Shown here in pieces: positions 2,993-33,597 of a DNA stretch of 39,819 bases. The DNA is from an uncultured Candidatus Altimarinota bacterium (GTDB lineage Bacteria > Patescibacteriota > Gracilibacteria > BD1-5 > UBA2023). The notes below the pieces were generated by a model, which was not told the origin of the DNA, made no database searches, and was given only the letters and a program-made list of their open reading frames with translations. Numbering within the stretch: the first letter of the stretch is position 1; every line of letters starts with the position of its first letter. The position numbers were made by a program, and so were the translations under genes. The stretch lies in the NCBI GenBank assembly GCA_936941205.1, contig CAKZJF010000057.1:1-39819 (forward strand). Reading direction: 5' to 3'.

Positions 2993-3693
2993 AAGAAGAG
3001 AGAAAAGAAGATATAAAGTATCGGAACATGGAGTAAATAAAAGAGTAATGCGTGTTGCCCTATAAAAATCAATGGGGAAAGAATGAGGTTTTTCTTCCAG
3101 AGAAGACAAGAGAGAGTATTGAATTGATTCATCCAATAGGCACAACTATGTCCGATAAGAAAGTATCAAAACCAAGGAAATACAGGATAGTAATCAGCAG
3201 AAAAATATACCTTCGGTGCAATTCAGAATGGCATGAGCCATAGATTCTTTCCATCAAGCTCTGAGAAATAGGTTCCCAGTAATAGTATACCGATACCGAA
3301 GAATATATTCCACTTCCCTGTTCGAATAAACCAGAGAGAAAGAAGAGAAGCTATCGCAAAAAAATGAATGATACCAAAACCAATTCTTTGCTCATAAAAG
3401 AATGTATACGTTACATAGGTGATTGTAAGGGCAAGGATTCAGAGAATTCCAGCTCGTATGAAAGTTCCTCGTAAAAGGATTCAGAGTGTTTTATTCCTCG
3501 AAGAAAGAAAGAACGAAAAACCTGCTAGAAAGATAAATGTAATTCCAATTATTGGCTGGAATCATCTCATATATACATCAAATAATTGAGAAGTTTTTCC
3601 TCAAAATACATGTATAAATAGATAATAGGCATGATAGCAAATCATACCTATTACAGAAAGTCCTCGGATACTATCGATAGCAAGGTAGCGCAT
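2989..3693 (-). CDS. Polytopic membrane protein, DUF1624/HGSNAT-type acyltransferase-like
   Basis: Code-25 [43 protein letters not shown]...PWFGYFLIGHSCAYW...IGQHALLFYLLHVPILYIFF*; 235 codons. Confidence 0.7.
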
Positions 3694-5129
3694 TATTGTC
3701 CTTTAAATAATTCTCTATATTTTCCATATCCCTCTTTTTCTAGGGATGCAACCGGAATGAACCTGAGAGCAGCAGAATTCATACAATATCGCTTTCAACC
3801 TTTTTCCTGTGGACCATCATCAAATACGTGTCAAAGATGAGATCCTGCACGACTACTTTTTATTTCTGTTCTTTCCATTCAGAGTTTCATATCATTGTGT
3901 GAAGTTACCAGAGCCTCATCTATAGGACGGGTAAAACTTGGCCATCCTGTTTTAGAATCAAATTTATCAAGTGAAGAAAAAAGCGGTGTACCATCTACAA
4001 CATCTACATAGATTCCAGTTTCATAATGATTCCAATACGCATTCATAAAGGCTTGTTCGGTTCAACCATTTTGGGTTACTTCGAAAGCAAGAGGGGTAAG
4101 TTTCTTTGAGAGGATATCCTTGCTGGTTATAAGGTTATCGAGTATATCTTTGAGTTGAGATTTCCCGAGCCATCTTTTATACATATTCCCTTGAGGATCG
4201 ATCTGAATAAATGTTGATTGACTCAGTATAGAATACTGTTTTTTGAGATCATCGGCAGTATCATAATCCACCTGAAGTATAATAAGGTCTCATGGAAGTT
4301 GTGTTGTACGGATTTGTTCATCGAAACTTTTACAAGTTGAACACCAATCAGCATGAAAAAATAGGAGAATTCGAGATCAGGTTAATGTCTGAATAATTCA
4401 TGATTGATACTGAATATACTGACCATTTCACGTGACGACTCCACTCAGTGTGGAACCTGTTTTTCCATATTCTTGAATAAAATTCTCTCTACCGCTTCAT
4501 TTCTTGTAGAGACTATATCGGAGAGAAGATTTTTTATAATAATCCTGATGGTACTCTTCTGCAGGGAAAAAAGTGGTAAATGGAAGAGATTGAACCACTA
4601 TTGGCTTGTCAAATTTATGTGATGATTCCAATACCATCTTGGCAGAAGCTATGATATCTTTTTCAATCGTGTTTTGATAATATATTGCTGTTGTATATCG
4701 AAATCCTTTATCTGCAAATTGTCCATCAACTTGCGTGGGGTCAATTTGTGTATAGTACAGATCAACTAAAGTGGTATATGATATTTTGGATGGATCATAT
4801 ATTACTTCAACCGCTTCACGATGTTTGGTAAGACCTGAAGAAACACTATCGTATGTTGCATCTTCTTTACTTCCTTCAGCATATCATGAGATAGCTTCTA
4901 TGACACCATTTTGTGCTTCAAATATACCTTCCATACACCAAAAGCATCATCCAGCAAAATATGCACGCGCGTACGAGTTTGAAGAATTCATATATTGGGT
5001 ACGAGTTTGAGAATAATAAAAACCGAGGAGATATGGAATGAGATAAAGCCATATCAAAAGAGTAACAAGAAGAACAAGTAAGATATTTCTTCGAGTGAAA
5101 AAATATCAAAAAGAAGGAGGTATTTTCAT
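3693..5129 (-). CDS. Membrane-anchored MsrA-thioredoxin-MsrB fusion (methionine sulfoxide reductase)
   Basis: 479 codons: N-terminal TM segment; MsrA GGCFWCMEG...[10 protein letters not shown]; Trx-like [18 protein letters not shown]; Msr[10 protein letters not shown]...RAGSHLGHVFDDGP...[13 protein letters not shown]; stop overlaps next ATG (TAATG). Confidence 0.92.
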
Positions 5130-5139
5130 AAAAAGACTT

Positions 5140-5862
5140 TTAGTAAGGGAGAGAAATAAATTTTTCTTCAAGACGGGTACTATCAAAACGAGAAAGAATA
5201 TTTGCTTCAATTATTTTATCCATTCAGGTTATAATGGCCAATCCAATAATGAAAAATATAATACCAAGAGAGCGTTTAAAAGTACTTCATTCATCTGCAA
5301 AAAAAACAAGTTTTTGGGTCAATTTCCTTCCTAGAATTGCAATCAGCAAGAGCATAAGAGAGAAACCTATGCTATAAACAAATGTATACCAGATTCCCAT
5401 GATAAATGATGCCGGGAAAACAGTTGCCAGAAGAAGGATATAGGTTGGTGAGCAACTGGAAAATACTGGACCAAGTGCTACTCATGTTACAATCGCACGA
5501 AAGACTGGGGAGGAAACATCTTGTACAGTATCAAGATGTTTCTCTGAATGAGTCCAATGAAGAAGGTATTTCAGACGTATCCAAACACCTGGAAAAAGTG
5601 AAATTGTTCACATAAAAATCAAAATAGAACCAGATACATATTTCCAGAAACTACTCGGAACATCAATAAGAACAGTTGATGCCTTGAGAAGTACCGTAAA
5701 AAGTACAAGAGAAAAAGTAAGTGAGCCGATAATGAGATACGGGTACCATCGAGCCCTTTCTCATATGCTCCCTGCTAAAATGATTGGGAGAATGGGGAGA
5801 ACACAAGGTGCAAGAATAGTAAGTACTCAGGCAAGAAATGAGGCAAGAAAAAGAGAAGTCAT
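5140..5862 (-). CDS. ccdA: CcdA/DsbD-type transmembrane thiol-disulfide electron transporter
   Basis: MTSLFLASFLAGVLTILAPCVLPILPIILAGSIGE... with APCVLP and FSSCSPTY cysteine motifs; 241 codons; 6 TGA vs 10 GGN glycines by hand count. Confidence 0.88.
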
Positions 5863-9752: not shown

Positions 9753-12362
9753 CTATATATTCTGATCATTAATATATTCTATAGGATCAAATCTATAGTC
9801 ATCTCCCAGTTTTGGAAAAATATCTACTGGGCTTTCAGGGCGACTAAAGTAATACCCCTGAATATAATCACAGCCAAGTTCTCTCAATGTATCAAGTTGC
9901 TCTCTTTTTTCTACTCCTTCTGCCACTGTTTTAATTCCCATTCCATGGGCCATTTGAATAATTGATGAAATAATTTGTTCTCAATCATGCGTATGAATAT
10001 TCTGGATAAAAGACCTATCAATTTTTAATTTTGTAACTTTGAATTGGTTGAGATAATTGAGGCTAGAATATCCCGTTCCAAAATCATCAATTGAAAGATC
10101 AAATCCCATTTCAGTGAGCTTATCAATAATTATCGTTGCAGTCATAAAGTCCTGAACAAGAACTCATTCGGTAATTTCAAATCAAATATGCTTTGCATCA
10201 AATCAGTGGGATTCCAGGATATCAAGAATATCTTGAATAAGAGACTCTGATAAAAATTGTTTTGCTGAAAGATTGATTCCTATCTTTGGTACATGTACAC
10301 CAAATTTTTTCCATTCTTTTACCTGCTTGCAAACTTCTCATATAGTCCATCGTTCAATAGCAATAATAATCTCGGATTTTTCTTCTGCAATCGGAATAAA
10401 TTTTGCAGGTGATATATATCATAAAACTGGATGTTTCCAGCGAAGCAATGCCTCCATTCAGATAAGACTTCGTGATTTTACATCAATAATTGGTTGAAAA
10501 ACCATAGAAAACTCTTTTCGTTCAATAGCATGATGTAACGCGGTTTCAATGAATTGTCACTCAGAGACAATATCTTTCATGAATCATGTATAAAAATGAT
10601 AACCATTCCTTCAAGTTCTTTTTACACTATACATCGCAAGATCAGCACATCCTTGAAGATCCTCAATATCAGTAGCATCATTGGGATATGTTGCAATTCC
10701 GATACTTGATCCTATAAATATTTCGTTTCCATCTATTATAAAAGGTTCCCGAAGAATCTCAGTAATTTTACTCGCAACATGAGCAATGTCATCGATCGAT
10801 TGGATATTTGATATAGCAACTAAAAATTCATCACCTCATTGACGGCCAATTAAATCACCTCCACGAAGGCATTGTTTCATGCGATATGATACCTGTTTGA
10901 GAAGCTCATCACCAGTAGAATGACCATGTGTATCATTTACATTCTTAAATTGATCAAGATCAATAAACATAAGCGCTATTATTGCTTTTCAACTCTCAGT
11001 ATCATCGAAAGTTCTATTTTTTCTTTCTTCGATTGAGATCATGAGTTTGAAATTATCTAAAAACCCTTTTCTATTAAGAAGTCATGTAAGTGAATCATGG
11101 GTCGCAAGATTTTCCATTTCCATCCTTGTTGCACGCTCTTGTTGAATAGCTAAGTCTTTTTTGATAATTGCTCATTCCATTTCTTTAATTGCTCGATTCT
11201 GCTGTTCTATAGCATCAATCGCTTCTCTTCTTGTTTTTATAAAAATAAAACTAAACAAAGTAAGAAGAAAAGTAACAAGAGCCCCTGAATACAGTATATT
11301 ATCAACATATCCTTGATGATGCATATTCCTTTCAGATTCAGCGTTTGAATGAAGGACAAGTAACCATTCACGATTTGCGATATTTACAATCTTTGTTCGT
11401 TTGATTCAAAATCCAGGTACATCAGTATTATTTTTATGTGAATTAAAAAGAAGCTTGTCCTCATTCTCAATCTTTCAATCATAGATTTGAAAATTAATAT
11501 CAGCAAATTGATTATGTGAAATCTGTGAAATAAGTTTATCTATCTGAAAAACAATTACTGCCCATCAGAATATATTTTCTGCACGTTCTCATGGAGTATT
11601 ATGTGGAATATTTTTTCCATATAGTGGATAATACATGACAAAATTCATAGCGTCCTTCTTACTATCTTGTACTAATGCAATAGGTGATGATAATATGGGA
11701 CGATATTCAGATTGAGATTGTTGCATAGATTCTTTCCTAACTTCATCTGAGAAATTATCAAATCAAAAAACATTTTGGTTTTTTCCTGTAAATGGTTCGA
11801 TATATGTAACTGGCGCATATTCTCAATTGTCTTTTTTAGGAAATAAATTTCCATATGTTGGAAATCATTCTTTCTGGACAGAGAGTACATGCTTATGTAA
11901 TTTCTCCTGAGGAATATACATTGAAATACTAATTCATGGAATCTCTGGAAAATTTTCCTTAATCCGGAGTGATTTTATGTATGCATTGAACTCTTGTCGA
12001 GTAATAGTATAAGATGAATCAAAAAGCCCATGAATACCATACAATACCTGTTCATACGCTTGAATTTTTGATTGTATTGGATAGGCGATATCGAGTAACT
12101 GACTGTCAAGCTGATGGGTAATATCTTGAACTACTGACTCTTTTTCCATGTTCCATAGATATTGAGTAACTGCAAGTGATGATGCAAATATAACTGCAGG
12201 AACAAATTTTCCTATCTCAGAAATCACAATTCCATCAGTCAAAGTGATAATTTCATTAATTTTTCCATGAAAAAACCCTCGTACTCAATCAATGATTGAA
12301 TGGTGCGATGGTTGATCTCTATGTTGACTCGGTTGAGAATTTTTATTATGATTTCAAAACAT
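9753..12362 (-). CDS. CHASE-domain GGDEF-EAL protein (c-di-GMP turnover)
   Basis: 870 codons; TM + CHASE-like GIHGLFDSSYTITRQEFNAYIKSLRI; second TM; GRQGGDEFLVAISN (first G of GGDEF = TGA); EAL domain GMEALLRW...IDDFGTGYSSLNYL...KTVAEGVE. Confidence 0.93.
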
Positions 12363-22789: not shown

Positions 22790-23896
22790 ATGAGCGACAC
22801 ACAAGTACAAATTCAAGATGATACAACTGCCCCACTCTCAACAATGAACACAAAGCCTCTCTCTTCTACCGAAGAAGCAGAAGTAGAAAAAACCTTCTCT
22901 GAAGCAAAGGATTTTCGACAGCTCGGAGAAAAAATTACTGCCCCACTTGATTCTATTATTGCAGAAACAGCCATAGTAATTGATGGTGATCCTATTATGC
23001 AAGTCTCTGATGAGCTCTCAAAAATGAACTCTTCTGTCCAAGAGGTATATAAGGAAATCATTAATAATGATGGAACCATGATGAAGATTGCAAAATCTGT
23101 TCCCCTTCTTGGTACTCTTATGAAGTCTCTCGACAGCAAATGGGATGAGGCAAAATTTAATATTCAATCCCTCCAATGAAAAATTGAAATGATTTTTTCA
23201 GGATTTGACCAAGCATACAATTCCCTGAATACGAGTATTGATATGCAGAAAAAATTCCTGGAAGGTATCGATGCAAATCTCGGGAAAGTAGTTGCCTATC
23301 GTGACTTTCTTTCTACTAAAATTGAGGCATTCAAGGCACAATGAGCAGAAACAACGGATGAAACCGCAAAGATGAAGCTTGATATGTTTATTCGTCAAGT
23401 GGAGTACTTTCAATCCAATCTCAATGTTCTTATCGGAAATCTCGATATGGCTCGAAAACGACTTCTTATGCGACTGGATGCAGCTGCAAAGCTTTCACTC
23501 TCTATGAGTTCGTCTCGCCCAATATTTAAGACCCTTCTTTCCACGGCTCTCATCGAAACGAGTTCACAAAAGGCGCTTGATGCATCCATGAAAGCAATTG
23601 ATGTTATGGGAGAAACGATTGATAAGATGTCTTCTGAGCTTACTGACAAAGCAATTGAATCCTCTCGAAAAAGTGAAGAGCTTTCTTCAAAACCAGTCCT
23701 TTCTTCGGAAGTTTTCGTAGAAAATGTTACAAAACTCAAGAACCACTTCGAAACAATTGAGGCATTCCGAGCACAAGTAAAAATCGAGGCTGATGCTGAG
23801 AAAAAGGCCTTCGACGATGCAAGTCTAGAGCTCGCAAAAGTAAAAGTTCTCAATGCACAAGAACAAGAAGAACTCGCAAAAGAATTAAATCAATAA
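22790..23896 (+). CDS. TelA-family (toxic anion resistance-like) protein
   Basis: 369 codons; ...DFRQLGEKITAPLDSIIAETAIVIDGDPIMQVSDELSKMNSSVQEVYKEI...SVPLLGTLMKSLDSKWDEAKFNIQSLQGKIEMIFSGFDQAYNSLNTSIDMQKKFLEGI...LDMARKRLLMRLDAAAKLSLSMSSSRPIFKTLLSTALIETSSQKALDASMKAIDVMGETID. Confidence 0.8.
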
Positions 23897-23981
23897 AACT
23901 CCCCAAAATAATCTCTTTTGGAGCAAGAAAGTAATTAAAAAGTATCATATATAATCTTATTGTTTTAATCTGTATTCAACC

Positions 23982-24260
23982 ATGAATCGATCTAAAAAAG
24001 TCACGCTAGGAATATATTTTTTTGCTTTTGTATTACCAATACTCGGAATGATGAATTGTTCAGGATGGAATGAGGGAAGTATGGTTGTTGAATCTTGTAT
24101 TATTGATGGTACTATTTTTAGAGCTTACGCAGATTTCTATTATGGTTGGTTACTTATATCTGCATTCATGGCTGGAGCCCCCATATTAATATTTATTGGA
24201 ATTGTAGTTTTTCTGACAAAACTCATCTCAAAAAGAATTGATAAGTTAGAGAACAAATAA
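23982..24260 (+). CDS. Small membrane protein, unknown
   Basis: MNRSKKVTLGIYFFAFVLPILGMMNCSGWNEGSMVVESCIIDGTIFRAYADFYYGWLLISAFMAGAPILIFIGIVVFLTKLISKRIDKLENK; two TM segments. Confidence 0.65.
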   Translation: MNRSKKVTLGIYFFAFVLPILGMMNCSGWNEGSMVVESCIIDGTIFRAYADFYYGWLLISAFMAGAPILIFIGIVVFLTKLISKRIDKLENK

Positions 24261-24379
24261 ATTTACACTGACTATGTCAACTGCAAAATATTTGCATAAA
24301 AATCTTTCTTTTTATCAAGGGGGATTTTTTTGTATTTTCCCATATTTTTCCATATAATTACCCTACTTATCAATCCACC

Positions 24380-25591
24380 ATGCTTACACGAATCCTCGAA
24401 AAATCATCCGAACAAAAGCCAATAACAAAAGAAATCGAGAAAAAAGTAGATGAGCGCGGCTTCTACTTGTACGAATGGATTTCCTCCGAAGAACTTCGAA
24501 TGACGCTCGATAATGATTATCTTACCATCGTACGATATGGAAGTATTCCACTTGCAATTATTGCAGCAATTGCGGGTTTTATCGGATTTGCCGGAGGAAT
24601 CCCTGGATCAATCATAGCTATTCTTATGGTTCTTGGATTATTCTATATAGTTATCTTTATTCTTCTTTTCTTTGGATTTCTTCGAAAATCTTACCTCTAT
24701 ACGAGAGGGGCAAATGTAGTGATTACAGATAATCATTTTGTACAGGGTGGGAAAATACTTGCAAAAAATAATACCAATTCCATTCAGGAACGTTTTTCCC
24801 TCTATGAAAGAGTATTTCATGAGAAATTTCTAGAAGCCTCACGTCTTGCTGAAAAAAAGCAAATTGAGAAAAAAGCCCTCTTTGATAATCTCAAGGATAT
24901 AGCCATGGGATGAGGAAATATTATCAAACATGTGGGGCGTTCTCGTGATTCTGGAGGGATAATTCTCGTGATTCTTATTGCTGGGTTTCTCTATAGTTTT
25001 ATGATGGCAAGTGTATACTTTATCGGGATGTTTTTCATCGCAATTTTTGGTCGTATATTTGGTTGGCTGGCCCATATGTATCTCTTAGCCATAAGTAATA
25101 AAGAACATATTATTCAAAATTTATTTGGAGAAATAGATGAAAGTGCACAGAAACTTGAGAAGGAAAAAGAAAATATAATCAATCTCTTAAGTGAAGCATC
25201 AAGGAATGAATGGAAAGAAAATCTCCTCGGGAAAATTAACGAATCTACTACACTCCTCGGGAAAATATCAGGAGACGCAGTCAATGATAGTATAAAGCTT
25301 CGAAAAACTTTAGAAGACTCATCATTTAAAGATATCTTCAATTTTATAAAGTATAATAATTGGATAAAGAAACAGATTCTAGAACCAATTGATTCCATAC
25401 TTTTGCTCATAGAAAAAAACTATGCTACAATAGAGAAGACCATCTCTTCTCTTGAAGATGAAATTATAAAAACAACAGACCCATCCCTTAAGAAACCACT
25501 TGAAATTCAAAAAGAACGACTTTTGCTTCAAAAGGAAAGTTTCAAAAGAATCATAAGAATGCTTCAAGGATATAAGGAAAAACTTTCTTAA
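24380..25591 (+). CDS. Membrane protein with long coiled coil, unknown (cluster paralog family)
   Basis: 404 codons; multiple TM segments then coiled coil; C-term TTDPSLKKPLEIQKERLLLQKESFKRIIRML resembles the ORFs at 27685 and 28494. Confidence 0.75.
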
Positions 25592-25604
25592 TACCATTCG
25601 TTTC

Positions 25605-26417
25605 ATGCAACATTTAAGAGATCTATTCATAGATAGTAATATCTCAATCGAAGAGATCCGCGATAAAGTAAGAGCAATAGAATATTACAAGTATCCTACT
25701 TTTCCAAAAAGTATAAAGTGGTTTATGGCATATTTGATTTTTGTTCCAATCACACTTGTTTTTTTGGATGAATTCTTCGATGTTTCAAAATCAAATATAT
25801 TTACCAATCAAATTGCAATTATTGTCTTTATTGGAAGCATTATTCTTGGAGTAATCATACCCATTCTATACTATATCTGATTTTTTCTTATCTATACTCC
25901 AAACAAAAATTCTAAACGACATAATCAAGTACTCTCTTTTCTTGATCAAGCTATACAACATACTACCATAATCCAAGAACAGTATTCTGAATTAAAAATG
26001 TTAATTGAGACCGATAAAACAGTATCTGGAATTGATCCAAAAACAGTTATACATATACGAGATAAAATCCAAGAAATCACAAAAGCAATATCGCTCATAA
26101 AACAAACGTGAAAGAGGCTCAAGATGGAGCGACAATATGCTCATGTATTTGTAAATGAAAGACTGTACGATACCTACATTGAATTATTTACTGAAAAATA
26201 CCAAGAAATAAGTCTTCGTCTCTTTCTTGGTTTTGAAGAGACTATAAATGAATGGATGAATTCTCATACCCATGAGCTTATAGAACTTGAAAAGAGTATA
26301 AATCAACAAATCATTCAACAACCATTAGAAATAACTATTAATTCCCCTCTCACACTTCAACAAATACGATTACAAGATCATATTTATTCTCTCAAACAAG
26401 TTCAAATTACTTCCTAA
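25605..26417 (+). CDS. Membrane coiled-coil protein, unknown
   Basis: 271 codons; MQHLRDLFIDSNISIEEIRDKVRAIEYYKYPTFPKSIKWFMAYLIFVPITLVFL... two TM helices then coiled coil. Confidence 0.72.
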
Positions 26418-26426
26418 TATTTTTTT

Positions 26427-27671
26427 ATGACACAAAAAGATTCTGGTTTCGATGCATTTTTTCAAGCGATTACTACCTCTCCTGAATTTAAAGATGCAGT
26501 TACAAAAGATTGGAAGTGAGATTCACTTGCATCTCTTGAATCCTCCCTTGAAGAAATGCAATCATGAGTAGATAAGGCTGCCAATATTATGAAAAACTTT
26601 GATAGTACTTTTAATACGCCAGAAGCTCAATCAGCTATAAATCCTCCAAAAACTGGAAATCCACAGGATGAACAAGCTCCTTCAATCATAGAAGTGCAAC
26701 GATTTGAAAAAAAAGAATGAAAACCATGGGGATTCGAAGCGGTTGCTGGGATGGATGTACTCAAAGATGAACTTCAAGATAGTTTTATTAAGCCAATTCG
26801 TTTTAAGTTCTTAATAGAACGACTCAAAAAACAATCTCCTGATATGGAAAGTACCCCAGAAGAAAAAAAGAAACATGAACTTCTCTTGAAACTCTATAGT
26901 GAATATGAGAAATTTAAAATTTCTATTCCAACAGGAATGCTCTTCTATGGCCCTCCTTGAACAGGAAAGACATTCATTACCAAGAAACTTGCTGAAGAAC
27001 TTGGTTGTGGCTTTGTTGCAAAAAATATGGGCGAATTTGGTTCATCATATCTCCATCAGACCACAAAAAATATTAAAGACTTTTTTACTGCTACCAAAAA
27101 AGCTGCCGAAAAAGAACCAATTATCTTATTTTTGGATGAGATTGACTCACTTGTCTCTGCTCGAACGGATCGAGTTGATGCAAATAAGGCAGAGGAAATA
27201 AGCCAATTCCTCCAGGAATTCAATGCACTCGAAACAGCACCAAATCTCATAGTTATTGCAGCAACCAATCGGCCTGATCATCTCGATCCAGCTATCCTTC
27301 GTTCTGGACGTCTTGATAAAAAAATCTATCTTGGACCTCCTGATGAGATAGCTCGTCGAGAGCTTTTCAAGATGTATATAGAAAAATCTGGACGTCCTCA
27401 TGAAGCTCTCGATTATGATGAGCTTTCTCATCTTACAGAATGATATGTTTCTGCTGATATTGAAACCATGTGTGATGAAGTTGCACGCGATGCTTCGAGA
27501 AATCTTCTTGAACTCCTTGATGAAGCTGAAAATGGTTCACTTACCGATACAGATCTCAGTGGACACACTATTACGATGGATTCCCTTCGTAAAACTATTA
27601 TAGAAACTCCATCTTCTCTCAAGATGGTAGATATGAGTATATATGAGAGTTGGCTGGAGAAGGTTAAGTAA
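26427..27671 (+). CDS. AAA+ ATPase (classic AAA clade; FtsH/p97/spastin-like module without TM)
   Basis: 415 codons; Walker A GPPGTGKT (third-residue Gly after PP = TGA at 26958), Walker B IILFLDEIDSL, sensor/Arg fingers ATNRPDHLDPAILRSGRLDKKI. Confidence 0.93.
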
Positions 27672-27684
27672 GTTAAATACTACT

Positions 27685-28392
27685 ATGAAGATACAAGCAA
27701 CTGAACTCTTAATTAAATACAAAAATGTATTAATCAACTCACAAGTTAAAATAGATGAGCGATCGAAGGTAATTCTCAGTCATCTTACTAAAATGTCTGT
27801 AATATTTTTAGTAGTGATGACATTATTTATTGGTCTTTCAAAAGGAAGAACAGGTGGTGATCCATTTAAAATTATTATGTTCAATATTTTTTATGGCTTA
27901 ATAATGTGAATACTTGCATATACTCATCCTCTTATACCCAATTTTCTTATTTGAAATATTATCACACCACTCCTCACTTTACCATTAGTAAAAATTTCAA
28001 AAGATATAGAGAACCTTATTGCAAAAATTAACAATACCATAGACCTCATCCAAGATATGGATGAAATACTTGATTTTTTGGATCATCTTCAAAAAATATT
28101 AAAATTTCTAACGGTCTATAAGTTCCTTTTTAGATTCTTGGTATGAGTCAATATAGAAGATATTTTCGAGGAAACGAAGATATGGGTAATGTGAGTTTTA
28201 CGAGACCTCAAGTCAGATCTCAATATCCAGATTATGAATCAGCAATCAATTCTCAAAACAGCAAAATCCGAAGTCGAAATACATATCTGATGAACCACCG
28301 AACTCAATCAAGTCTCAGAACTCCAGAAAGTTCGACTTGATCGACAGATTGAACAATTTGAAGAATTACAGAAAGTAATAGTGAAGATATAG
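27685..28392 (+). CDS. Membrane coiled-coil protein, paralog of 28494 ORF
   Basis: 236 codons; C-term AKSEVEIHIGGTTELNQVSELQKVRLDRQIEQFEELQKVIVKI. Confidence 0.75.
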
Positions 28393-28493
28393 TTTGCTTC
28401 AAAAAACTTATTGTGATAAAATTTTCCTAACACTCCAGATATTTGATATGAATGTATATGAGGATAGTTTGGAGATAATAAAATAGAAATTAT

Positions 28494-29210
28494 ATGCAAA
28501 AATCTCCATTCCTCTTGAATCAATATAAAACTATCAAAAATAAAATCCAAAAAGATATAAATACATCTATTTATACTTATGCTTGAATATGGGGATTTAT
28601 ACTAACTATATTAATAATTTGTTATAGTGTAATTAAGATGGTTTTATATATTGAGAACCTATTTCCATGAAGTATGGAAAATATCTCTCTTCTTATTTTT
28701 ATAGTACTGGGTATTATTATAATTGGTATATGATCTATTTATACTATATACAAACTCGTTAATAATTTACTCATATTTCCTATCAATGTTATTCTAAAAA
28801 TGACTGAAAATCATATTTATTCACTCAATAAAAGTATCAATAATAAAATATATGATTTACAGCAAATTGATGAAATACTTGATAAATTAGAAAATGCTAG
28901 ATATTTATATAGATTTCTTTTTATTATACGTCGAAGTATCTACTATTTGAGTAGAAAGAATTTTTCCGCACTTTCCAAAATTATTGAATCTAACATAGAT
29001 TGGATATTATGAATTCTTGCTAATCTCCGATCTGACCTCCAGATTCGTCTCACAGAACAACAACAAACTCTTCAATCCGCCAAATCTGAAGTCGAGAAGA
29101 ATATAACCTGAAATACTGATCTAAATCAAGTCTCTGAACTTCAACAAGCTCGTCTAAATAGACAGATCGAGCAATTCAAAAATCTTCAAAAAACTCTGGT
29201 ACAAGTATAG
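28494..29210 (+). CDS. Membrane coiled-coil protein, paralog of 27685 ORF
   Basis: 239 codons; C-term AKSEVEKNITGNTDLNQVSELQQARLNRQIEQFKNLQKTLVQV. Confidence 0.75.
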
Positions 29211-29241
29211 TAATAAATTCATCTTCTATTTATAATACAAT

Positions 29242-30147
29242 ATGGAACAACTCGGCTGAATCATATTTCTTGTTATTTTTCTTCTTATTCTCCCTTGAAT
29301 TGCCATCTATTGAGCTTATAAATGGGTACAGGGACTTTTTCAGGATATAAGAAAAACAGAAAATGAGAGGAAAAAGATGGAGGAAATAGATGATGTTTCT
29401 TATAAAAACATTGAAAGTGAACAAGAATTCCATCAATATTCATTTTACCCTACATGAATGAGTCGAACATTTTCAACAAAACCTATAATATGATGAGAAA
29501 TTACGAAACAACAAACTCTCTTCTATACACTTACATGACTCTCTTTTCTTACTTGAAAATATAAATACACTGAAATTGTTTTAAGGAATGTAAATACAAG
29601 ATATTTTGTGAATAATAAGATTGTTATTACTGAACATTTTTGAAAATTTTATATCCTCTATACATGATTTATTACATATTTATTTACAGCATACTGATAT
29701 AGCTTTATTCTAGGAGTATGTACACTTCTCTTCTTCGCAATAACCAATAAAAAAGTTCTAGAAACATTTATGAATGAAAATTCGCTCTATTTGGTAATTT
29801 ATATGCTTACTGTTATTCCAATTAGCATCCCTGCTATATCAGTATTAAATCCAAGGAGATTTATAACACTACTCAAACAACAATCTATGGAATCATTAGA
29901 GTTTGAGGATAGCTTTGATGCCTATTCAAAAGATCCTATTGAAGCAAGAACCATTATAACACCTGCACTCATGGTTCGAGTAGAACAATTCAGTAAACAA
30001 TGGTGACTAAAATGAAAAATCAGGATCATTTGGAAATGAAATGATATCATCTTTGCGATTAAATGAGATATCGATACTCTCAAGTGAGGAGATGACTTCC
30101 TGATATCTCTCCAAGAATATTTAAATCTCAGTTATTATAAAATATAA
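29242..30147 (+). CDS. DUF3137-like membrane protein
   Basis: 302 codons; MEQLGGIIFLVIFLLILPGIAIYGAYKWVQGLF...LEFEDSFDAYSKDPIEARTIITPALMVRVEQFSKQW...NDIIFAIKGD. Confidence 0.72.
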
Positions 30148-30186
30148 ATATTCACTTATAGAATTTGCTTTTCATTTCTCAATATG

Positions 30187-30210
30187 ATACCCTATTAGGG
30201 TATTATTTTT
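30187..30210 (+). terminator. Terminator or attenuator between DUF3137-like gene and lemA
   Basis: ATACCC-TATTA-GGGTAT followed by TATTTTTTATT. Confidence 0.5.
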
Positions 30211-30225
30211 TATTCTAAACTTATT

Positions 30226-30849
30226 ATGACTGGAACCACATTGGAAACACCTGTATTTGGTATTCTTGGAGAAACAACCAATACACTCTTATGACTTGGT
30301 GGGATTGCACTTATTATTGGGCTTTATTTCATCGTCACATATAACTCAATCATCAATGCAAAAAACTCTACAGGTGAGGCATTTTCTGCAATTGATACCG
30401 TTCTTCAGAATAGATACAATCTTATTCCAAATCTCGTTGAAGTTGTAAAAAAATATGCTGCACATGAGGTAGCTGTATTTGATAAAGTTTCAGAAATGCG
30501 AGCTGCACTTCTTTCCAATACTGACAAATGAAGCAGTGAACGATTCTCGAAAGAAAATGAACTTCAATCTACTATGAAATCACTCTTTGCAGTTGCTGAG
30601 AATTATCCAGATCTCAAGGCAAGTACAAACTTTCTCGAACTTCAAACTCAATGGGCTGAATTGGAAGATCGTCTCCAATGAGCTCGTCGAGCATATAACT
30701 CTGCCGTAAAAATGCTCAATAATAAAAAGGAAATGTTCCCTTCTAATATGGTTGCAAAGATGATGACACTTCCGGAATATGCTATGTTTGAAGCTGAAGA
30801 GGCTGCTCGAGTAGAAAAGATGGATGCAAAAGCTATGTTTAATGCATAA
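30226..30849 (+). CDS. lemA: LemA family protein
   Basis: 208 codons; [58 protein letters not shown]...[69 protein letters not shown]. Confidence 0.95.
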
Positions 30850-30864
30850 TACTCTCTAACTGAT

Positions 30865-32199
30865 ATGTTTAATATTGATTTTGCAACTCTCCCTGAAGAG
30901 TCCAAGAAACATCTTGCCCCAGAAGAAATAGTAACTCTCAACTCACTCTTCTCAGATCCTACCATCCAAAAACAACTCGAAGATATCGAAGAGCAACGAA
31001 AAATACGTCAAAAATGGAAATATGCAGTATATGGTTGATGTAGTGTTCTCACTCTTGGACTCTCATTTTTACTCGGAAATGATGAGAATATTTTCATAAA
31101 ATTATTAGATGGATTCTTTTATACCATTGGTTCTGGGGATAATTCTTTCTCTCCAGTAATCTGGACTGCTATTGGTTCCTATTCTCTGGGGATTGGTATT
31201 CTCTATAAAAAGTTTGCATCAAAAATTGAAATTCCTCTCAAAAGCGAAGTACTGAGTAAAATGTGTCCACTCCTCTATTCAAAACTGGAATATAGTTACG
31301 ATGAAAAACATTCTTTTGATGAACTTGAAATTCTTAAGACGAAAGAATTTCTTGATTCGTATGATAGTCTTGATCGTGTTGAAGACTCTGTACATTTCAA
31401 CGTAGAAAAGGATGGAAAAATCTTCTCAGTAAATGGATTTGAACTTGAAACATCTGAAATGCGATGAAGTGGAAAAAATCGAAGAAGAGTAACTACAAAT
31501 CACTGTTATCTCATGAAAGCAGTATTTCCTTATGCACGAATTCCCCTTCAAGATGATCTCCATATTCTCTCTGATCAGGCAGATTCAAACACAAGTAAAA
31601 AATGGTTTCTCCCAATTTTCTTTACCCTATTTTCTAGTCCATTTCTTATAGTAATACTCTCTCAAATATCAGAAAATCTTTGGTGGATAGGTCTCCTATG
31701 AGGTATTGGAATCGGAAGTATGTTTTATTTCTATAATAAACGAAAGATAAATGAAAACCGTATTCATCTCGAAAATATAGAGTTTGAAAAGCTCTTTGAT
31801 GTAAAGTGTGAAGATCAAATAACAAGTCGTATGATACTTACTCCAGCATTTATGGATCGTATAGTTCAGTTCATACAAAAAACATGAAATCAGTATGAAT
31901 TTATATTTCAAAGTAATATCATGTATGTAAAAAGACATATTCATGGAAATTATCTAGAAGCTGGAACAGAAAAAAATATGCTTACGAATTTACGATGATT
32001 TGTTCAATTTTATACTGATATGCGTGAAATTATTTCTTTTACACACGATATGAATCTGATGTATCTCTCAAAGACCACAGATCAAAGTGGCATTATCAAT
32101 AAAGGGACTGCACTCCCTGCAATCATTCCAATCCAAATGATAAAACCAAATAATAATACAAATGGATTTTTCTCTAAAATTACTGCTCGCTTTGCATAA
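30865..32199 (+). CDS. DUF3137 family membrane protein
   Basis: 445 codons; ...YSKLEYSYDEKHSFDELEILKTKEFLDSYDSLDRVEDSVHF...VFPYARIPLQDDLHIL...LENIEFEKLFDVKCEDQITSRMILTPAFMDRIVQF. Confidence 0.85.
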
Positions 32200-33597
32200 T
32201 TATGCAACATCTATCACGTTTCCTTTTTCAAACCAAGATATCCGCTCATATGAGCGGATTTTTTCTTGCATCCCTTTTGGAATCCCTATTTGATATACGA
32301 TTTCAACGAATTCTATAGCAGTCCGCTCAATATTTGTACGGAGTAATCCGTCTGGAATAAGTGCATGCGGGCGGAGATATAACTGCATATTTTTAAAATC
32401 CCTTTTCCAATTCTGTTTTATTTTTTCGATTTCTCCTATACAGATATCAATGACATCTGGATTTCCTGCGCGGAACTGGAAAAACATATTTTCAAATGCT
32501 CGTCGTTTTACATCAAGATATTCCCCATTTCTAAATTCTTCTAAGAGTGCTCAAAAAAACCATGCGATAGAATCTTTCAGATTCGCTTCGATATAATCAG
32601 TTCGTTCATATATCGCCTGATTTCTTCAATCCCTCTCCAGTGCAAGGGCCATTTCAAGCTGAGAATTCATTGATACAAGTTCTTCGATACGCCTATTAAG
32701 AGAGAGATTCTCTCGAACTCGTTCTGATCATTTCTTTTCATTGACTCGAAGTGCCTGAGCCTCATGAGACAAATTTGCAACCTGCTCAGAGAGTGTTTTT
32801 CCAGGGAGTTTCAACGGAGACATAACCTTTTCTATTGCCCTATATCCTGTCTCAATAGGAACAAGTTTCTGCCACCAATTTTGAAATTTTTGTGCATTCT
32901 TTTGTGCTACTTCCAAAAGTACTATACGTTCTTGGAGATTTGTTTTGAGTGATATATTTTCACTACTCACTTCCGATAATTCTGTACGTAAAGAGAGAAG
33001 CTGTTCTTGAATTGAAACATTATTTTTTCGAAATCGACGGATAGCATCCTGAAGAAGTGAATGTATTGACTTTTTTCATTCTATAGCCGTATCAGCTCGA
33101 GTAGTCTCATTATGCAAATCTCTGAGAATCTGTGCTATCTTATCACCGTACACTCGTTCCATATAAGCAAGAGCTGCATCTCATCATTTTGCAGACATCA
33201 CGGATAATATTCGAAATACCGATGCATTCACCTGAACTGTTGTCTGAAAAATGGATTGTTCAATAATATCTTGAAAAGAAGCACTCACTTGTTTAGAAAG
33301 GGATGCATAGTAGAGATCACTCCCATTATCGATTCCATGTGTAATTGCTTGTTCGATAGAATGTACAAGTTTTTCTATAGAACATGTTAGATCAGCATCA
33401 AGTACTCGTTTTCGTAAAAAGAATTCAAACAAAGATAAGCATGTGAGGGCAAATTCTTTTTCAAAATCCTTACATATTCCTTGAATTCATTTTGGATTAC
33501 ATCGAGCATCATAAACGGCGCAGAAAAAGCGCTCTCCAAAATACTTGAGTTGAGTACTATCATTTTCCTGTAATAGAGAAGTTGAGCTGTTATTCAT
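32200..33597 (-). CDS. Coiled-coil protein, unknown
   Basis: 466 codons; MNNSSTSLLQENDSTQLKYFGERFFCAVYDARCNPKGIQGICKDFEKEFALTCLSLFEFFLRKRVLDADL...; long heptad-rich centre, one continuous code-25 frame. Confidence 0.7.
32240..32264 (+). terminator. Intrinsic terminator (perfect 20-bp palindrome) for the + strand operon
   Basis: ATCCGCTCATATGAGCGGAT followed by TTTTT; lies inside the 3' coding part of the convergent gene. Confidence 0.75.

Follow-up and report, generated by a model that had tools for sequence, protein, structure and literature searches.

TelA-type proteins are widespread, and we know of no mechanism that has been established for them. The TelA genes of several plasmids adjoin genes for transmembrane (TM) proteins, KlaC and XpaC being known membrane partners of TelA/KlaB, a family named for toxic-anion resistance, and in Lactococcus the CesSR response to cell-envelope stress raises telA1 together with its XpaC-like neighbour (PMC3139573). 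In the present work, we analysed a stretch of 39,819 nucleotides (the window), which is contig CAKZJF010000057.1 (C57) of the 1.3-Mb draft genome of an uncultured Candidatus Altimarinota bacterium, whose named relatives are 'Candidatus Gracilibacteria'. Within it lies a cluster of ten genes (22790-32199, g1 to g10), in which a probable distant relative of TelA (g1), a membrane protein (g3) and an AAA ATPase (g5) form a conserved core, accompanied by a variable set of membrane proteins whose C-terminal helical hairpins appear to be homologous.

Compared with TelA/KlaB and its partners, this module adds a dedicated AAA ATPase and a family of proteins with a common tail. The other described systems that come closest are built around AAA proteins, namely Vps4/CdvC with ESCRT-III, NSF with the SNAREs, and FtsH; the first two would share with g5 a mode of action, and we use them as functional analogies only. 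A literature search, which left most subscription papers outside, found no paper in which TelA was combined with either this ATPase or Gracilibacteria and, because of that scope, we call the module undescribed provisionally.

Results

The ten open reading frames of the cluster are co-directional on the + strand, and three of them recur together in the relatives: g1 (22790-23896), a soluble, all-helical protein of 368 residues that is the most conserved member of the core, g3 (24380-25591), a membrane protein of 403 residues, and g5 (26427-27671), an ATPase of 414 residues. The search with g5 took in 192 genomes of the class, while the presence counts refer to the 77 genomes of the order. Full-length orthologues of g5 were restricted to the order; beyond it, the matches covered the AAA cassette alone and were rejected as orthologues, those that were inspected being FtsH. 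Within the order, g1 was present in 38 genomes, g3 in 33 and g5 in 29, and their co-occurrence was highly significant (pairwise Fisher p 1.6e-12 for g1/g3, 7e-10 for g1/g5 and 1.6e-9 for g3/g5), also when it was counted per genus (p 1e-6 to 2e-4 for the core pairs). Annotation of the loci in two families revealed that the order g1-g3-g5 was kept, with varying genes in between, and the identity to the window proteins ranged from 61 to 87% for g1 (over the two families) and from 25 to 83% for g3. The presence of the core was patchy (about half of the genomes), also inside genera, and a single sampled genome of the class beyond the order (G144) had g1. It is well supported that g1, g3 and g5 are the core of a module and were gained and lost together, and these three and the tail proteins described below associate beyond chance.

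The layout of g3 comprises two TM helices with a small beta element, further TM sequence and a long C-terminal helical hairpin, which the AlphaFold2 (AF2) model (predicted local distance difference test, pLDDT, 80) renders as two long confident helices (322-364 and 368-402). A homologous hairpin of about 70 residues, hereafter the tail, is common to g3 (tail at 25355-25588), g4 (25605-26417, 270 residues, two TM segments; tail at 26196-26414), the membrane protein g6 (27685-28392, about 235 residues; tail at 28171-28389) and its paralogue g7 (28494-29210, 238 residues, two TM segments; tail at 28989-29207). For g6, the open reading frame opens at 27643, and the ATG at 27685 avoids an overlap with g5. 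The membrane parts of g3 and g6/g7 are dissimilar, whereas their last 50-70 residues, approximately, align (hhalign E 7e-6). Comparison of the tails of g3, g4, g6/g7 and a family of 150-185-residue proteins of the relatives gave mutual E-values of 1.9e-12 to 3e-3, mostly ≤2e-4, and the g3 tails matched the other tail families at 1e-6 to 7e-5. Heptad-preserving shuffles reached the value of the real tails in 0 of 40 trials in each of five pairs, the best shuffle being 0.008, and the C-termini of g1 and g5 did not match the tail profiles. Judged from these alignments, one homologous helical hairpin forms the end of g3 and of a changing set of further proteins, most of which have two TM segments. 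The description of these genes as encoding paralogous TM/coiled-coil proteins, which had been given in a preliminary description of this DNA, was correct and can be extended by the hairpin that g3, g4, g6 and g7 have in common. None of g2, g3, g4, g6 and g7 matched Pfam, NCBIfam or PADLOC above any cut-off, and XpaC (PF10112) was not found at E ≤ 1 in any of 17 g3 orthologues.

Inside the order, the tail proteins are confined to genomes with core genes. Of the 40 genomes that have core genes, 29 had tails, compared with 0 of the 37 that lack them; for tail proteins other than g3, the corresponding counts were 22/40 and 0/37 (p 1.2e-8). When the first 40 loci with their 662 proteins were examined, every significant tail match fell within the cluster or next to g1 and was almost always located at the very C-terminus, and a search of the whole genome to which the window belongs found four tails, every one at this locus. 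Two frames beyond the order, of 1187 and 3701 residues (G088, G134), also had tail matches, which were rejected as apparent chance similarity of coiled coil. In one genome of the order (G329, a 2.4-Mb bin with 6% contamination), nearly the whole of a contig (C111, L090:322-8256) consists of membrane proteins in tandem with the tail at their ends, a large expansion of paralogues away from the ATPase.

The relation of g1 to TelA is distant. The window protein did not match Pfam TelA (PF05816; cut-off 30 bits) at E ≤ 1, and no TelA match was found in its genome; one of ten relatives matched weakly, at 3e-4, and the best relatives reached E 3e-4 to 4e-4 with about 20 bits, which is under the cut-off. 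A profile of 25 g1 sequences aligned collinearly in hhalign with nine TelA sequences, i.e., plasmid KlaB and its relatives and Patescibacteria TelA, over 241-338 columns at E=4.5e-4, with an hhalign probability of only 33%, whereas 20 column-shuffled profiles and a reversed profile all gave an E-value of at least 0.049. Against three divergent Patescibacteria TelA sequences alone the alignment was not significant, tblastn of one Patescibacteria TelA against plasmids gave no match, and neither did a profile search of the PDB with g1. The AF2 model of g1 was helical and of low confidence (pLDDT 55) and was left out of the fold search. The g1 homologue of G144, which belongs to another family, matched Pfam TelA at 4e-4 and adjoins an SPFH/SHOCT protein; an SPFH gene also lies near TelA in Paracoccus. 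Like TelA/KlaB, g1 is soluble and helical, has a similar length and is encoded near genes for TM proteins; unlike them, it falls under the Pfam threshold, and Pfam does not identify its partner g3 as XpaC. The name 'TelA-like', which g1 had been given in the preliminary description, holds in so far as the profiles suggest a distant relative of TelA, below the curated threshold for membership, and not as a Pfam assignment of the window protein itself.

The ATPase g5 matched PF00004 at E=9.5e-36 and AAA_lid_3 at 1e-5, the latter slightly below its cut-off. It is a single CDC48-like AAA cassette, its closest solved relatives by sequence being CDC48/p97, and it is preceded by a conserved N-terminal motif, GFDAFFxAxTxSPEF. 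The Walker A and B motifs, sensor 1 and two Arg-finger positions are intact and invariant in 18 orthologues, which agrees well with the soluble AAA+ ATPase that had been recognised earlier. Tyr208, also invariant, occupies the position of pore loop 1 as judged by visual comparison with known AAA proteins. Going by its motifs, g5 has everything that is expected of an active classic AAA ATPase. No TM segment was predicted and no protease domain or peptidase match was found in g5, which distinguishes it from FtsH, whose AAA cassette belongs to the same broad class and for which there are separate genes in the genomes of the class that were inspected. Similar to Vps4/CdvC, g5 is a classic AAA protein with one cassette in a membrane setting, and its proposed substrates have a common C-terminal helical element. 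However, it missed the cut-off of the NCBIfam CdvC equivalog (130 vs 650 bits), the 25 Pfam families listed include no MIT domain, no ESCRT-III/PspA match was found in the cluster, and the proposed substrates are integral membrane proteins. Like NSF, it is related to CDC48 and is proposed to dismantle helical bundles on membranes, and t-SNAREs head the fold search with g3; those fold matches are not significant (E>0.1), g5 has one AAA cassette, and no match to a SNARE family was found. As regards defence systems, IetA matched the AAA cassette alone with no partner (the IetS protease) matched in the cluster, and PADLOC returned nothing beyond generic AAA and helicase domains.

The 3' part of the cluster has a different distribution. 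LemA (g9, 30226-30849; PF04011, E 7.8e-46, 156 bits vs a cut-off of 26.2) is followed by a DUF3137 protein (g10, 30865-32199; PF11335, 3.2e-20, 72.9 bits vs a cut-off of 26.1), and g8 (29242-30147), a membrane protein of 301 residues, gave a partial DUF3137 match (9.2e-11, 42.2 bits); the earlier naming of LemA and DUF3137 was thus accurate. Probably, g8 is a divergent paralogue of g10, and it was seen in the window only. Of the 77 genomes, 12 had DUF3137 above the cut-off, divided evenly between those with and those without core genes (six each; p = 1), and the LemA-DUF3137 pair occurs at loci without g1, g3 and g5 in four genomes (G131, G330, G149, G362). It lies 3' of the ATPase in two genera only, the genus of the window and genus g6 (the window and three related genomes). 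Moreover, a terminator-like hairpin with a 10-bp stem and a T run (30184-30206) separates g8 from LemA and is a likely boundary of the module. Because of this hairpin and a distribution without co-occurrence, the evidence argues for LemA-DUF3137 as an independent passenger pair outside the module, which is downstream by happenstance; the pair is present in the window and, outside these two genera, is not linked to the module. The preliminary description had treated the genes as one system that included LemA and DUF3137; the conserved part of the neighbourhood proved to be g1-g3-g5 with the coiled-coil membrane proteins. Neither g8 nor g2 (23982-24260, 92 residues, two TM segments) had a conserved counterpart at the locus detected in the relatives, and the membership of g2 in the module is doubtful.

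The genes are read correctly only when TGA codes for glycine (NCBI code 25). Two TGA codons lie within the LemA match and five within the AAA frame; the standard code 11, under which the reading frames are broken at TGA, was rejected. Under code 25, the genes and their common direction are as first described, but there are ten, not nine. The gap between g4 and g5 is short, with g5 starting 9 nucleotides past g4, and at other junctions there are gaps of 85, 119 and 101 nucleotides; because of these gaps and the hairpin before LemA, the ten genes are probably not one transcript. The palindromic terminator that had been reported at 32240 was found at 32240-32259 (+), 3' of g10 and within the 3' coding end of a convergent gene (32200-33597, −). 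This gene encodes a coiled-coil protein of 465 residues, which also adjoins DUF3137 in a relative (L032).

The genes that accompany the core vary among the relatives. At three loci (L035:5939-8926, L037:5090-8116, L038:5533-8589), the ATPase adjoins an SF2 (ResIII/DEAD) helicase of about 1000 residues that ends in a conserved KIEKLWI and has predicted TM segments near the C-terminus; the next gene encodes 353-392 residues. The helicase is of an unusual, membrane-anchored type. Other loci have a Fic protein (L043:6199-6939), a histidine kinase, a TPM-domain protein and a tail protein directly before TelA (L034:3485-5926) or a TPM-domain protein 3' of g3 (L047:9525-10397). Elsewhere in the window, a CHASE-GGDEF-EAL protein (9753-12362, −), a cyclic-di-GMP enzyme with a sensor, is encoded within this small Gracilibacteria genome, as is an MsrA-thioredoxin-MsrB fusion protein (3693-5210, −).

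Discussion

A motor that pulls on hairpin bundles would be the simplest explanation of the module, because a putative unfoldase that lacks a protease is encoded among membrane proteins with one common C-terminal hairpin. We favour, at somewhat below an even chance, an accessory membrane-remodelling module of Gracilibacteria in which the ATPase, with the TelA-like protein as an adaptor or scaffold, pulls on or dismantles complexes of the tail-bearing coiled-coil proteins. In such a module, the C-terminal hairpins would form bundles on the cytoplasmic side of the membrane, either with one another or with the TelA-like protein, and g5 would be recruited through its conserved N-terminal motif or through g1 as an adaptor. 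Assembled as a hexamer, g5 would thread protein by an aromatic pore loop (Tyr208) and unfold or take apart the hairpin bundles, and the variable membrane domains may in this way be assembled, reset or exchanged. This action would be comparable to that of NSF on SNAREs or of Vps4 on the C-terminal motifs of ESCRT-III, g5 being a member of neither system. An action of the ATPase on the coiled-coil proteins had been suggested in the preliminary description, and the common hairpin now provides a concrete candidate handle for it. Nothing was found in support of the secretion function that was suggested at the same time.

Several observations weigh against this interpretation. The contact of the ATPase with the tails is presumed, and Foldseek with g3 gave no significant match, t-SNAREs ranking first at E 0.15-0.5, which is a lead and not evidence. 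False similarity arises easily among helical coiled coils, although our shuffles control for heptads. In G177, which belongs to another family, two of three tandem membrane proteins (L119:5161-7936) had a tail match (about 1e-8), and no TelA-like (g1) or AAA (g5) partner was detected in this genome despite its tail-like proteins. Moreover, g1 and g3 occur without this ATPase in 8 genomes and the ATPase without a detected g3 in 4, which may mean that this ATPase can be dispensed with or replaced, and in some genomes (G156, G330, G331) g1 lies away from the ATPase. Many of the genomes are draft metagenome-assembled genomes.

The same 8 genomes would suit an envelope protection of the TelA type, in which a static scaffold built of g1 and the coiled-coil membrane proteins stabilises the membrane under stress, much as TelA would together with XpaC or KlaC; the ATPase would then serve the biogenesis or turnover of this scaffold as a chaperone and would not be its working motor. 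The co-occurrence of g1 and g3, which is tighter than that of either with the ATPase, the plasmid TelA genes beside genes for TM proteins and the TPM-domain and histidine-kinase genes that adjoin in some relatives are all consistent with it, and for the envelope stress of the preliminary description the one basis is the analogy with TelA-XpaC of Lactococcus (PMC3139573). However, the ATPase is present in 27 of the 38 genomes with g1, inside the cluster of g3 and the tail proteins and just past g4, and no counterpart of the tail was found in the TelA profile; we regard this scaffold as possible, if on the unlikely side. The patchy presence and differing gene contexts, the variable inserts, which include the membrane-anchored helicase and the Fic protein, and the tandem array of tail proteins in G329 would also be expected of a conflict or defence island whose core serves changeable effectors and whose tail proteins diversify by an arms race. 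Such an island is improbable considering the generic nature of the PADLOC matches, the strong conservation of the TelA-like protein and the window itself, within which no effector-like domain was found.

With regard to the cluster as a whole, a single operon-encoded machine for envelope stress, remodelling or secretion that includes LemA and DUF3137 would account for the adjacent, co-directional genes in the window and three related genomes, two genera in all. It is very improbable, as LemA-DUF3137 is also found in genomes that lack the core and, in G131 and G330, at other loci, co-occurrence with the core is absent (p = 1), and the terminator-like hairpin precedes LemA. The opposite extreme, chance neighbours with unrelated functions, agrees with the gaps of 85-119 nucleotides at several junctions and with g2 and g8 not being conserved at the locus. 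This may hold for g2, g8, g9 and g10; for g1, g3, g5 and the tail proteins it is refuted by their co-occurrence and common tails, and as an account of the entire cluster it is scarcely credible.

If the remodelling module is taken one step further, the locus could represent a motor-and-tag system, in which a Vps4/NSF-like AAA ATPase and a TelA-type adaptor act on open-ended, diversifying membrane proteins via an interchangeable C-terminal helical tag, an idea that we put forward with considerable doubt. A lineage that ties a TelA-like protein to a putative motor and a defined tail-bearing family provides a testable hypothesis for TelA, namely that it is an adaptor or scaffold for coiled-coil membrane complexes. 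Bacteria of the candidate phyla radiation (CPR) have small genomes and are thought to be dependent on other organisms. Should the tail serve as a docking tag, these bacteria would possess a counterpart of the C-terminal motifs that are read by Vps4.

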